Shown here piece by piece: positions 6,967-15,836 of a stretch of 64,000 nt of DNA (within the stretch, counting starts at the first letter, position 1; each line of letters begins with the position of its first letter). This DNA is from Candidatus Latescibacterota bacterium. GTDB taxonomy: Bacteria; Latescibacterota; UBA2968. The position numbers were made by a program, and so were the translations under genes. The notes under the pieces were generated by a model. The model was given only the letters and a program-made list of their open reading frames with translations, was not told the DNA's origin and made no database searches. The DNA lies in assembly GCA_022821275.1 (NCBI GenBank), contig JAJEDY010000094.1:1-64000 (forward strand). The letters are read 5' to 3'.

Positions 6967-8097
6967 TCAGGCCTGGATCTGCTCCAGCCAGCCTTCCAGG
7001 GTGTAGCGCAGGTCGCCGATTTCCTCCGGGTGGAGGCACGCGAGGTCGGTGCGGTGTATGGGGCGGATGCCGAGGTCGGGAAGGGTGGCACCGCGCTGGT
7101 GGAGGTCGGTGCCGTAGAGTTTTTCCAGGACGACGCCGTTGGCGTCGCACCAGTCGCCTGAGTTGAGGGTGGGAAGGCTCTCTTTGGGATCAAAATTGGG
7201 GGCACCGAGGTGGCGGTGGATCCATTTTAGGGCGACGGTGTAGCCGAAGTAGGGCCGATGCCCTCCCGCTGGTTCGAACCAGCAAGCGATGTGGCCGTCC
7301 GGGAAATTCGGAGCCGCGCAGGCCACGGCGTTCCGGGTGCCTTCCCACGCGGCGCCGTCTCCCTCTGTGTCGATGATGACGTCGGCGTCGCCGTTGAGGA
7401 TGAGGACGGCGCAGTGGGGCGCTGCCAGGGAGAGAAATTCCGGCCAGGTGCAGAGGGTGCGCAGGCGCTGATTTGGGACGCGGGTGCAGAATTTGCCGGT
7501 GACTGTCATGGTGTCACACAGCGCCCAACCGGAGACCAGCGCCAGCTTGAGGCGGGTGTCGAGAGCCAGCATCCAGGAGGCTTTGGCGCCGCCGAGGGAG
7601 TTCCCCGCTACACCGACGCGCTCCTGGTCGATGTCGCTCCGGGTGAAAAGGAAATCGATGCCCCGCATCGTGTCGAAGACGAGCTTGCCCATGATGAGCC
7701 GGCCAGCCCCATCGGCGCAGGTGTGGACCTCTTCGGGGTCGTGCGCCCGGGTACCTATGTCGCCGCAGATGTGCCGCTCTTCTTCTCCGACCGGGTCCAG
7801 AACCAGGCAGGCCAGCCCGAGTTTGGCATAGAGTTGGGGGATGTAGGTGTACTGCCACTGGCTTTTGCTGCCGCCGTGGCCGCAGGTTATCACGATGGAT
7901 GGCATGGGTGCGGTGGGGTGTGCCGGTCGATAGAGTACGGAGGGGACACGGGAACCGGGTTCGCTCGTCCAGATCCATTTTTCGACGATGATTTCATCCC
8001 GTTCGATCTGTCCGCGGAACTCCGGAGCCAGGTCGCAGCGGACCGTGGGGATGCCCAGGAGGTCGCGCAGGGCGCGGCGCAGGGATTCGGTTTGCAT
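6967..8097 (-). CDS. Alpha/beta hydrolase, acetylxylan esterase/dienelactone hydrolase-like
   Basis: MQTESLRRALRDLLGIP start; VGVAGNSLGGAKASWMLALD nucleophile elbow (GNSLGG); NGDADVIID. Confidence 0.8.
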   Translation of the reverse strand: MQTESLRRALRDLLGIPTVRCDLAPEFRGQIERDEIIVEKWIWTSEPGSRVPSVLYRPAHPTAPMPSIVITCGHGGSKSQWQYTYIPQLYAKLGLACLVLDPVGEEERHICGDIGTRAHDPEEVHTCADGAGRLIMGKLVFDTMRGIDFLFTRSDIDQERVGVAGNSLGGAKASWMLALDTRLKLALVSGWALCDTMTVTGKFCTRVPNQRLRTLCTWPEFLSLAAPHCAVLILNGDADVIIDTEGDGAAWEGTRNAVACAAPNFPDGHIACWFEPAGGHRPYFGYTVALKWIHRHLGAPNFDPKESLPTLNSGDWCDANGVVLEKLYGTDLHQRGATLPDLGIRPIHRTDLACLHPEEIGDLRYTLEGWLEQIQA

Positions 8098-8175
8098 GGG
8101 AAAGCTCTTTAGCTGGACAGCGGGATGTCGGCGTGCTGTGAGACGGTGAAGGTCCGTCCTGTAGATAGGAAAGAA

Positions 8176-8560
8176 TGGTGGAGGCGGCGGGAATCGAACC
8201 CGCGTCCGAAAGCAGTTTGATAACGGCATCTACGTGTGTAGTCTATTCACTTGGAATCTCGCATCCCGCGCCCCAACAGACAGGGTCGCTGAGATGCCAG
8301 CTCGATGGTTGGGGCTGTGGCCCACTCTCATCCGGAGGCCCTCGAGCGGAAACCCCCGCACCAGCCTGCTCTCGTCGGCGCTCTGCCCAGACCACGCAGG
8401 CAAGGTCTGAGAGAACGGACTGCGTAACGGTTAGTTAGGCAGCCATTGCGTACGTGTTATCGTCCGCAGTTGCGTTTTTTCCCAATTGTTTTACGAGGTG
8501 ATTGGGTACCTCGACACGCAGCTATTATCTCTCCACCCCCGTCGAAGCCGTGTCGCCCCC
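8176..8560 (-). ncRNA. ssrA: tmRNA (transfer-messenger RNA)
   Basis: Minus strand 5' GGGGGCGACACGGCTTCGACGGGGGTGG; tag ORF GCAACTGCGGACGATAACACGTACGCAATGGCTGCCTAA; 3' GGACGCGGGTTCGATTCCCGCCGCCTCCACCA. The acceptor arms pair. Confidence 0.95.
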
Positions 8561-11916: not shown

Positions 11917-12894
11917 TCACAATTGTTCGCGCACAACAGATAGCAAACGCGTTTGCACTTCGTCAACCGAGCCTGTAATCTCGCAACCCGATGCGCGGAT
12001 ATGACCGCCACCATCAAATTGACGGGCAACGCGATTGACATCTACTTTTTCCCGCGATCGCAAACTCACGCGCTGTTGCCCAGGCTCTTGTTCTTTAAAA
12101 AATAGTGCGACTTCAACTCCGTCAATCGACATCGCGTGATCGACCACGCCATCCAGATCGCCATTCATCGCATGGGTTTTGTGATCAACGTACAATGTGC
12201 AGATCTGTCCATTTTCGTGTAGCGTTAGATTCGACAGCGCGAATCCCAGAGTTTTTACCGTTTGGTACGTCTGGTTCGAAAACATGTTCTCCGCAATCTG
12301 CTGCGGATCAGCACCGTGTGTAACGAGTTCCGCAGCAGCACGGAGCGCGCGTTCTGGATGCGAATGTTTAAATAGCTTTGTGTCAAAAACAATTCCGGCA
12401 TATAAACAGGTCGCGATCTCAGGTGTAAACTCCGAATTACTACGACGGGCGTGCCTGTTTATGAGCAAATAGATCAATTCACTGACAGAACTGGCGTCTG
12501 GATCAATCACCCGCACATCGCTCTTTTCATCTGCATCTACATGGTGATCGATTACCAGTGTCCTGGTTGCAGGCCCAATCAGGTCTGCGACATCACCTAT
12601 GCGTTTTTTCGATATCGCGGTATCTACGACCACGAGGCGCGGCACGGGGGTTGTCAGTTCTGAGTTGTACACCGATTCTATGCGTTCATAGCCCGGCAAG
12701 AACCGATATTTGCGATCTGGCGTCTCATCCGCCACCAGAATGCGGTGCTTTTGATCATGATGCGCCAGCCAGTGGCTCAACCCCAATAACGCACCGAGGC
12801 CATCGCCATCGGCATTCACATGCGTTGTCAGCACGAGTTCATCGCCTGCCAACAAAAAATTCAGAGCCGCTTGAAAGTCCATTGTTATATCCAA
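11917..12894 (-). CDS. nrnA: DHH/DHHA1 phosphoesterase, NrnA-type oligoribonuclease
   Basis: TTHVNADGDGLGALLGL; VIDHHVDAD; FDGGGHIRASG. Confidence 0.9.
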   Translation of the reverse strand: MDITMDFQAALNFLLAGDELVLTTHVNADGDGLGALLGLSHWLAHHDQKHRILVADETPDRKYRFLPGYERIESVYNSELTTPVPRLVVVDTAISKKRIGDVADLIGPATRTLVIDHHVDADEKSDVRVIDPDASSVSELIYLLINRHARRSNSEFTPEIATCLYAGIVFDTKLFKHSHPERALRAAAELVTHGADPQQIAENMFSNQTYQTVKTLGFALSNLTLHENGQICTLYVDHKTHAMNGDLDGVVDHAMSIDGVEVALFFKEQEPGQQRVSLRSREKVDVNRVARQFDGGGHIRASGCEITGSVDEVQTRLLSVVREQL

Positions 12895-12921: not shown

Positions 12922-13512
12922 TCATCGGCGTTTTAACATTTGCTCGTGCTGGCGTTTGCGTTGCCCCAAAATTTGCTGCCGTCGCTTCTGCGAACTGTGT
13001 ATGTTGTAAAGAATACTCACTCGTTTGCGTGCCGTTTGTAATACCTGGACATCGCGCTGGTCCTGATCTTTTATTCGGGAAAAATACAGCAGGCGTTGGG
13101 CAGCGTCTCGTAGTGATTTTGCCGAAAACAATACGGATAGTATTCCCTGTCGCCCGATTTTGTATATTTCACGCGCACGTTGTGCTATATCTTGCTCGCG
13201 ATTTTTGAGTTGTGACTGAGCCTGTCGAAGCTGTTGCTCAGTACGCTTGATTTCATCTCCCAGACTATTGATTTCTTCAGCCAAATTCAGAGATGTGTTT
13301 TCATCCTCGCTTTCAGGTTGATTTGGCACCGATGCTTCAGACGAAGGCTGGGAGGGTAAGTCACGCGCTTTTAAGCTGTCCATCGCTGCTTGTTCAGCTT
13401 TCAGGCGTGTTTCCAGAACTGTTATTGTCTGTGCTCTGCCAGTAGATGATAATGCAATTAGAAGAGCTATCATATACAATATGTACGCTGGTTTTTGCAC
13501 GCCATACCTCAT
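12922..13512 (-). CDS. Secreted coiled-coil protein, EnvC-like N-terminal region without a LytM domain
   Basis: Signal-like ILYMIALLIALSSTGRAQ; long heptad region; AREIYKIGRQGILSVLFSAKSLRDAAQRLLYFSRIKDQDQ; located directly after ftsX. Confidence 0.7.
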   Translation of the reverse strand: MRYGVQKPAYILYMIALLIALSSTGRAQTITVLETRLKAEQAAMDSLKARDLPSQPSSEASVPNQPESEDENTSLNLAEEINSLGDEIKRTEQQLRQAQSQLKNREQDIAQRAREIYKIGRQGILSVLFSAKSLRDAAQRLLYFSRIKDQDQRDVQVLQTARKRVSILYNIHSSQKRRQQILGQRKRQHEQMLKRR

Positions 13513-14372
13513 GTAATTTCTCTCAATAGGCGGTTTAATGATGACCAACTGCCCACTGCGCCCAGCACTGTGCCCAATGCCACCAGACAGAGTGCCAGTT
13601 CAATCGTTGGTGTAACTGTCAAATCCGGTACGCGAACAGCCCACCACGGTGCTATATAAGCCAGCATTAAGGGTGCCAAAAATCCACCGATAGAGCCTTG
13701 TATTATCCCTCCAGTCCCAAAGATCATCCACACAGTCATATTCGTTGCGCCGACCAGCCTCATAATCCCAATGGTATCGCGCTGGGCGAGTACCATCAAC
13801 TTGGTCGCATGGCTTATTGCAAATGCACACGCAAAACACAGCACACATCCAAGCGCGAGTCCAATGCCGGTGATTACTACAATAAAATGCTCTAAAGAAT
13901 CCGCCCAAACTTCACCTACATTTACACCTTCTACAGCGTTATGGCCGGTTACATGTCTTGCAACAGACCGAGCGCGGCGCGGCATATTCTCACCGGGCGA
14001 GATACGTACTCTGAGTGAAGCGGGCAATGGATTGCGCGACAGCGCATCGACCGCACCCAGGCCGAAACGTGACTGAAATTCTCTGGCAGCCTCGTCCTGA
14101 TCTACATACACAATTCCGGCTACCTCGGGCCTCGCTTCTAACGTGCGCCGCAATGCGAATACGCGCTGAGATGAAACGCCGTCTTTTAAGTAAATGTCTA
14201 TCTCTACCCGCGCGCGCAATCGGTCAACCAGCGCGTTTCCACTTTCGATGACCTGCCACAGGAATCCCAATACCAGCAGCGATGCCCCAATGGTTACCAC
14301 TGAAATCACACCTGAGATTCTCGTGCGCACAACGCCTTGCCAGGCCTCGCGCAATACCAGCGACAAATTCAT
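13509..14372 (-). CDS. ftsX: Cell division protein FtsX (permease-like)
   Basis: EIDIYLKDGVSSQRVFALRRTLEARPEVAGIVYVDQDEAAREF; C-terminal four-TM FtsX region with MRLVGATNMTVWM. Confidence 0.9.
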   Translation of the reverse strand: MNLSLVLREAWQGVVRTRISGVISVVTIGASLLVLGFLWQVIESGNALVDRLRARVEIDIYLKDGVSSQRVFALRRTLEARPEVAGIVYVDQDEAAREFQSRFGLGAVDALSRNPLPASLRVRISPGENMPRRARSVARHVTGHNAVEGVNVGEVWADSLEHFIVVITGIGLALGCVLCFACAFAISHATKLMVLAQRDTIGIMRLVGATNMTVWMIFGTGGIIQGSIGGFLAPLMLAYIAPWWAVRVPDLTVTPTIELALCLVALGTVLGAVGSWSSLNRLLREIT

Positions 14373-14388: not shown

Positions 14389-15054
14389 TCAATTTGTAAC
14401 TTGTTCAATGACGCCATTTTCCAACTGCAATATCCGCCAGGAATATTTGTTTTTCTGTACTGAATTGCGCGTCGCTATGATCACAGCTATTCCGCGCGCA
14501 TTCATCTTTTTTAAAATAGCCATCACGCGTTCGGTTGCTTCAGAATCCAAATTGGCTGTTGGCTCATCTGCCAACACGACAAGGGGATCATTCACCAGTG
14601 CCCGCGCAATGGCCACCCGCAGTCGCTCCTCACCCGATAACTCATCTGGATACGCATTGCGTTTGTGCAACAAATTCACATCCGACAATATCGCTCGTGT
14701 TTTTCGCTTGATCCAGCGCCGCGAAACACCTGTTACTTCAAGTGCAAAGGCTATATTTTCATATACTGTGCGATGGTGCAATAATTTGAAGTCCTGAAAA
14801 ACCATCCCCACTTGCCGTCGCAATCTCGGGATATCCGATTTTCGGATTTGTCGCGAGTCGTATTCTCCTACAGAAACTACGCCAGAACTGGGCAATTCCG
14901 CAAATATAACCAGCTCGAGTATCGCGCGTTTTTCCGCGTCGGTCTGTCCAACCAGATAGACAAATTCACCCCGATTGATCTCTGTGTTGACATCGACCAA
15001 TATCGGTTGTCCCTGCTGCTCGACACACACGTTTTGTAATTTGATTACAGGCAT
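14389..15054 (-). CDS. ftsE: FtsE-like ABC ATPase with degenerate Walker A and H-loop
   Basis: GEFVYLVGQTDAEKRAILELVIFAELPSSG; LSGEERLRVAIARALV; VVLADEPTANLDSE; GIAVIIATRNSVQ; next to ftsX. Confidence 0.88.
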   Translation of the reverse strand: MPVIKLQNVCVEQQGQPILVDVNTEINRGEFVYLVGQTDAEKRAILELVIFAELPSSGVVSVGEYDSRQIRKSDIPRLRRQVGMVFQDFKLLHHRTVYENIAFALEVTGVSRRWIKRKTRAILSDVNLLHKRNAYPDELSGEERLRVAIARALVNDPLVVLADEPTANLDSEATERVMAILKKMNARGIAVIIATRNSVQKNKYSWRILQLENGVIEQVTN

Positions 15055-15086
15055 GATGTACAACTGTTTCAGTAGCTCCAATTGAG

Positions 15087-15836
15087 CTATTTTTTAAGAA
15101 CAAAATGCACCCGATCCGAAAATTCTGTCGGTGGTGCATACCCAAATCCGCCGTAAGCTCCGACCATTTCAAAAGGCGATTTATCTATAATTTCTACAAT
15201 TGCCGACAAAGAGTAGATGCGCTGTTGATGCACTTCTTTGACCACTTCATCCGTATCTTCAAAGTGAATATCAAATTTGTTGTATTGTACACCCTTCTCG
15301 TAATAGCTGTGCCGCCGATATGAAAATCCATCTCCCGAATCTTCTGATTCCATATTGCTAAAGTATTGCCTCGAATTGTTCTCTGTACAGATATCGACCA
15401 CAAAAACACCGTTGAGATTTACAATGAGATGCACTTCTTCCAGAGCACGCGCGATCATTTCGGGTGCCGTCAAATAGTTGATGCTATCGTACAAACACAA
15501 TACTGCATCACACGGAGGTAAATCACCCAAATTGAGCAGATTGCGATGATAAAATGGAATGGGATAGCGCAATTTACGCGCCTTTTCTATAGCCATATCC
15601 AGCATTTCTCGGCAACCATCTGCACCCATTACATCGAACTTCTGACGGTATAACTCAATTGCCAGACTGCCCGTGCCGCAGGCCAGATCCAATACGCGGT
15701 TGGGTTTGATTTTGTGTCGGGCGAGCAATGACGACACATAATGTGCCCAATGTACGTAATCCACATGTCGCATCACATAGTCGTAAATGGTCGCCAGGCG
15801 GCTATACGGGGTTGCCTCAGTTTTGAAGTTTTGCAT
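15087..15836 (-). CDS. Class I SAM-dependent methyltransferase
   Basis: VLDLACGTGSLAIELYRQKFDVMGADGCREML. Confidence 0.85.
   Translation of the reverse strand: MQNFKTEATPYSRLATIYDYVMRHVDYVHWAHYVSSLLARHKIKPNRVLDLACGTGSLAIELYRQKFDVMGADGCREMLDMAIEKARKLRYPIPFYHRNLLNLGDLPPCDAVLCLYDSINYLTAPEMIARALEEVHLIVNLNGVFVVDICTENNSRQYFSNMESEDSGDGFSYRRHSYYEKGVQYNKFDIHFEDTDEVVKEVHQQRIYSLSAIVEIIDKSPFEMVGAYGGFGYAPPTEFSDRVHFVLKK

Follow-up and report, generated by a model that had tools for sequence, protein, structure and literature searches.

Genus-wide loss of the FtsE P-loop in an FtsE-FtsX-coil core that lacks a division amidase arm

Introduction

FtsEX is commonly portrayed as a mechanotransmitter driven by ATP, and the debate over which of its functions need ATP still relies on engineered mutants. 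The locus described here raises the question of what an FtsE that has lost its nucleotide site in nature is doing in an ftsE-ftsX operon. It lies in a 64,000-nucleotide stretch of DNA from a Candidatus Latescibacterota bacterium (GenBank assembly GCA_022821275.1, contig JAJEDY010000094.1, positions 1 to 64,000; hereafter, the window). An earlier note on this stretch reported an FtsE with a destroyed Walker A motif and an altered H-loop, and proposed a structural, ATPase-independent FtsEX. The literature searched yielded no account of an FtsE that lacks Walker A in nature.

Results

The ftsE gene, which encodes a degenerate ATPase subunit, is an open reading frame on the minus strand of the window, at 14389..15081 if translation begins at a TTG codon (230 aa) or at 14389..15054 if it begins at an ATG (221 aa). 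Its identity as ftsE, claimed in the earlier note, holds: the top family is NCBIfam TIGR02673 (221.8 bits, below the 264.85-bit equivalog cut-off), and the best PDB sequence matches are solved FtsE structures (E 1e-50). An AlphaFold2 model based on a 33-sequence alignment is a confident ABC nucleotide-binding domain (pLDDT 89), for which Foldseek finds S. pneumoniae FtsE (6z63/6z4w, TM 0.90) as the nearest solved fold. The gene shares its strand with ftsX across a 16-nt gap, an arrangement conserved through the order. We also considered whether a second canonical FtsE might supply the ATPase, and rejected this candidate, since none was found in the genome; the best other matches are ABC ATPases of different, non-FtsE kinds that are 32-38% identical, the next best standing at 32%. 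Judged from its sequence, the protein is an FtsE homologue by descent and not an FtsE ATPase.

Alignment with 10 congeners and 10 outgroups located the lesions, all given here on the minus strand. The Walker A motif, or P-loop, is lost: GQTDAEKRA (residues 45-53; 14923..14949) stands where outgroups have GPTGSGKST, with Asp/Glu replacing Gly48 and Gly50, and Arg replacing the Mg-ligand Ser52. The ABC signature is degenerate, reading LSGEE instead of LSGGE (14626..14640), and the H-loop reads ATRN, with Arg for His (14464..14475). Walker B (VVLADEP, 14560..14580) is kept, and the D-loop (ANLD) is normal. Thus, the reported P-loop, H-loop and Walker B were all confirmed in the window's only FtsE, but the signature, which the earlier note took to be retained, is not: its second Gly is kept in 10 of 10 outgroups and in none of the 11 species of the genus, which elsewhere carry LSGYE, LSGDE, LSGDG, LSAYE or LSGRE. 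This Gly should contact the gamma-phosphate in the ABC dimer.

The P-loop is missing from all 11 sampled species of the genus (G000-G010, including two single-contig genomes), taking the forms GQTDAEKRA, GQTEAEKRA, GHTEAEKRA, GHTEAKKRA and, in the deepest branch (G008), GQTSAETSA. Every family, order, class and phylum relative that has ftsE keeps GxxGxGK[ST], and loss of the P-loop was seen in none of 80 FtsE-like loci from other phyla, of which 78 match the pattern, one is truncated before the P-loop and one carries the GKT variant APSGGGKTT. Alignment across relatives, proposed earlier as a check on whether the changes are lineage-wide, therefore gave a split answer: loss of the P-loop extends to the whole genus, but the H-loop change does not, the residue being Arg in 4 species, His in 5 and Gly in 1. 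A normal Walker A, which had been taken as the sign of a sequencing error, was absent from all 11 congeners. Although most of the genomes are draft assemblies, a sequencing or binning artefact, or a single odd genome, was rejected and has next to no probability given the consistency of P-loop loss and of synteny over eleven species, two of them single-contig.

Outgroup-invariant columns abolished in every congener comprise the two P-loop Gly residues, the second signature Gly and Thr198; Gln154, adjoining the signature, is lost in all congeners except G008. Columns that congeners keep include the Walker B Asp, the D-loop Asp, Arg88-Arg89 and Val116-Thr117-Gly118. From the substitutions at Gly48, Gly50 and Ser52, together with the missing signature Gly, it would follow strongly that FtsE has lost both ATP binding and ATP hydrolysis. 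Some residual nucleotide binding could nevertheless persist, as the P-loop Lys51 is present in 10 of 11 congeners, and E. coli FtsE K41A retains part of its activity (PMC7791547). A non-canonical nucleotide cycle, in which the altered loop binds weakly or FtsE pairs with another, canonical ABC ATPase, would draw on this Lys, the Walker B Asp-Glu and the mostly kept D-loop. However, it would have to operate with two acidic residues in place of the Gly residues that wrap the phosphate and with Arg for the Mg-ligand Ser, G008 has neither Lys51 nor the catalytic Glu (replaced by Asp), and the genome provides no second FtsE; we consider such a cycle quite improbable.

The partner gene, ftsX (13509..14372, minus strand; TIGR00439, PF18075 and PF02687), encodes a permease-like protein with an extracellular domain, and is single copy in those genomes of the genus whose ftsX contig is complete. 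Its coupling helix, AQRDTIGIMRLVGA (13746..13787, minus strand), is predicted to dock FtsE and is conserved, with IMRLVGA intact across the alignment; the corresponding docking peptide of pneumococcal FtsX is ISREIQIMRLVGA (PMC7468199). Decay of FtsX was rejected, as both the extracellular domain and the coupling helix are kept. In G008, roughly 460 nt separate ftsE from ftsX (L045:6554-7013); this spacer holds a long open frame in phase with ftsX, whose homologous start lies near L045:7013, and no tandem repeat was found in it.

Downstream of ftsX is an envC-like gene (12922..13548, minus strand, with a probable ATG near 13512) that encodes a signal sequence and an FtsX-binding coiled-coil hairpin (PF24568 CC_PcsB) and has lost the restraining arm and the LytM domain (no PF01551). 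Open frames of this gene are 194-233 aa long in the genus, compared with 406-523 aa for outgroups, and in the genus the protein ends after the hairpin, without LytM, in 10 of the 10 congeners with sequence there. The conserved downstream neighbour, an nrnA-like phosphoesterase gene (11917..12894, minus strand; family match and synteny), begins about 28 nt past envC, too close for a LytM domain to fit between them. Relocation of LytM to an adjacent site was rejected, since only about 30 nt separate envC from nrnA, and the 520-nt interval at the former site of the amidase gene is smpB. The AlphaFold2 model of the envC-like protein is an antiparallel hairpin (helices 67-122 and 135-196) that among PDB entries best matches 6tpi, EnvC in complex with FtsX (probability 0.98, but E 0.13). 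Full-length EnvC-like proteins with M23/LytM occur in eight relatives at family, order or class level (G011-G014, G017, G018, G020, G021), and their LytM domains belong to the EnvC type: the catalytic motifs are replaced by FNRGINI and LHFEI. In EnvC itself the coil binds FtsX, residues 222-278 form the restraining arm and residues 278-419 form LytM (PMC7668044). On this map, the genus lacks the half that regulates and activates the amidase. The claim of an intact operon thus survives for ftsE and ftsX, which have stayed together, but not for the downstream envC-like gene.

Members of the family and order share the gene order around the trio (ppi-surA-S4 domain-methyltransferase-ftsE-ftsX-envC-nrnA), the upstream methyltransferase gene lying at 15087..15836 (minus strand; family match and synteny). 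Both arms of the coil are shortened in the core clade, by deletion in the N-terminal arm and C-terminal truncation (window 12922-13548), and the coil of the deep-branching G008 (L045:7859-8560) keeps a longer first arm; compared with one another, these sequences suggest that the hairpin was trimmed stepwise. Elsewhere in the window, the 3' end of a tmRNA gene (8176-8560, minus strand) is overlapped by the listed start of a hydrolase-like open reading frame (6967-8229, minus strand), the true start of which is probably further downstream.

Loss of the activator domain is accompanied by loss of the amidase. A division-type Amidase_3 (E 1e-46 to 1e-53) is present in exactly the eight sampled class relatives with canonical FtsE, and carries a helical insert ahead of the last zinc ligand, which we take to resemble the regulatory insert of division amidases. 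Neither the 11 congeners nor the class relatives sampled that lack ftsEX yielded a strong match of this type; G024 gives an Amidase_3 match, but a weaker and different one. Where the amidase is present the order is sirB1-smpB-amidase-dnaC-like, and in the genus smpB and the dnaC-like gene are adjacent, with ~30 nt between them (~135 nt in G008). The division amidase gene has therefore been cleanly excised from between these two genes. The one Amidase_3 that the genus still has is fused to LysM and is a paralogue of distinct type, found also in relatives without ftsEX. At G000:C77:123242-123904 (L195) it has three LysM domains; it is the only Amidase_3-family amidase left in the genus, and may be the remaining cell-separation amidase. 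Several other M23 proteins also persist.

Across the class, relatives with canonical FtsE retain both LytM and the amidase. In six others (G015, G016, G019, G026, G037 and G046; L210-L215) ftsE-ftsX-envC has been wholly excised, the methyltransferase gene adjoining nrnA in G015, G016, G019 and the checked f4 genomes, and those trio-less relatives sampled for the division amidase lack it too. The whole module has thus been lost repeatedly. The genus retains the ftsE-ftsX-coil core without the ATP site, LytM or the division amidase, so that the class holds three states (full module, none, and an intermediate), the intermediate occurring only in this genus. As the 31 genomes are related, this pattern represents few events, perhaps four losses, and not 31 independent observations. 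Presence of the trio also differs inside one genus, G015 and G016 being without it and G017 and G018 with it. Every congener of the window genome has FtsZ and FtsA.

We next turn to selection on the trio. Pooled dN/dS within the genus was 0.230 for ftsE (95% CI 0.178-0.294), 0.273 for ftsX and 0.278 for envC, about twice that of three neighbouring genes (0.13-0.17), indicating that constraint on the trio has weakened. Branch lengths were compared on a fixed tree built from neighbouring genes. The path leading to the core genus from its divergence from G014, the canonical sister, measured 6.3 times the G014 branch for ftsE, 3.0 times for ftsX and 3.3 times for envC, and 0.7-1.5 times for four neighbours. 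None of 10 complete copies has an internal stop or frameshift, those of G003 and G005 ending a few codons early, and in neutral simulations under a simple substitution model 0 of 1000 runs kept all nine core copies free of stops. Faster branches combined with dN/dS well under 1 indicate that the trio passed through a shared shift yet stayed under selection.

These measurements bear on whether the trio is a relic, made functionless by loss of the amidase and LytM and now decaying. Its full excision in the six relatives named above, the faster evolution and elevated dN/dS seen in each of the three genes and the scatter of H-loop and signature residues are what such decay would leave behind. Nevertheless, an ftsE dN/dS confined to 0.18-0.29, ten complete copies free of lesions that neutral simulations never keep open together, and conservation of the docking helix, the coil hairpin and the new P-loop itself all argue for continued function, and we regard a relic as unlikely. 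The conserved element of that loop is AEKRA, found in 9 of 10 core-clade congeners within the pattern G[QH]T[DE]AEKRA. It is conceivable, though we give the idea little weight, that the replaced loop is a new selected element whose acidic side chains occupy the place of the phosphate and fix the conformation of FtsE; FtsEX would then be nucleotide-free, permanently set and engaged in a new division job.

Discussion

We consider it likely that the genus has a naturally occurring pseudo-ATPase as its FtsE, and that the FtsE-FtsX-coil complex is a nucleotide-free, passive division scaffold that outlived its amidase-activating output. The ATPase-independent FtsEX proposed in the earlier note is accordingly the best-supported reading, because ftsE is under purifying selection; what does not stand is the implication of an otherwise intact system. 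With the LytM half of EnvC and the amidase gone, the remnant is an FtsE-FtsX-coil core without hydrolytic output, not a full FtsEX minus ATP. Retention of Walker B, the D-loop and, mostly, the Q-loop, none of them obviously needed by a pure scaffold, counts against this interpretation.

The scaffold could have arisen as follows. Removal of the EnvC restraining arm, LytM and the division amidase gene eliminated the periplasmic output of FtsEX, and a lineage without an amidase arm would have little use for an ATP stroke, while a role as divisome scaffold could persist. FtsE would have stopped cycling with ATP and become permanently nucleotide-free, clamped on FtsX, so that the complex with the coil would act at the division site as a passive scaffold running from the FtsZ/FtsA side to the periplasm. 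An ATPase-independent role like that known for E. coli FtsE and FtsEX would have been kept and mechanotransmission discarded. In E. coli, both localisation and the septal-synthesis phenotype persist in FtsE K41A and D162A (PMC10269673), and recruitment of EnvC by FtsEX aids cell separation without hydrolysis if NlpD is present (PMC7343993). Losing ATP binding, and not just hydrolysis, may be the tolerable route, as it would avoid a blocking ATP-bound state: in E. coli, a hydrolysis-dead FtsEX (D162N) that should still bind ATP puts a block on septal wall synthesis via FtsA (PMC7343993).

A passive complex might instead have been repurposed, with FtsE-FtsX-coil statically recruiting a different envelope protein, such as one of the remaining M23 proteins, via the shortened coil. 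Persistence of several M23 proteins and remodelling of both coil arms in the core clade fit this proposal; the operon, however, holds no recognisable candidate for the partner gene, and the M23 proteins do not look genus-specific, which makes repurposing doubtful. If the passive division scaffold is correct, then ATP hydrolysis serves the arm that activates hydrolases, and the scaffold role can stand alone. Evolution would here have separated the functions of FtsEX, with the amidase, the activator domain and the ATP site gone and FtsE, FtsX and the coil left in place. Since canonical, intermediate and trio-less species occur in one class, the requirement for ATP can be tested with natural proteins.

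The closest known system is the type VII ABC module FtsEX-EnvC-AmiA/B/C of E. coli, P. aeruginosa and V. cholerae. The genus resembles it in the FtsE fold, in the operon order ftsE-ftsX-envC, which is that of its class, in the extracellular domain and IMRLVGA coupling helix of FtsX, and in an EnvC-type coil hairpin predicted to bind FtsX. It differs in that the P-loop and signature of FtsE are destroyed, EnvC is without its restraining arm and LytM, and the cognate amidase gene is gone. A second parallel is with the ATPase-dead FtsE proteins engineered in E. coli (K41A, D162N/D162A), which likewise lack the productive ATPase cycle that the motifs suggest is missing here, and in which some functions survive (PMC10269673, PMC7343993). 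In contrast to those laboratory alleles, the loss in this genus is natural, fixed, spread over multiple sites and coupled to loss of the hydrolytic arm. Evolutionarily kept non-consensus ATP-site motifs are also seen in TAP1, CFTR and Pdr5, each of which has one degenerate nucleotide site. Those transporters are asymmetric, with one working site, whereas FtsE should form a homodimer, in which case both of its sites would be dead here.
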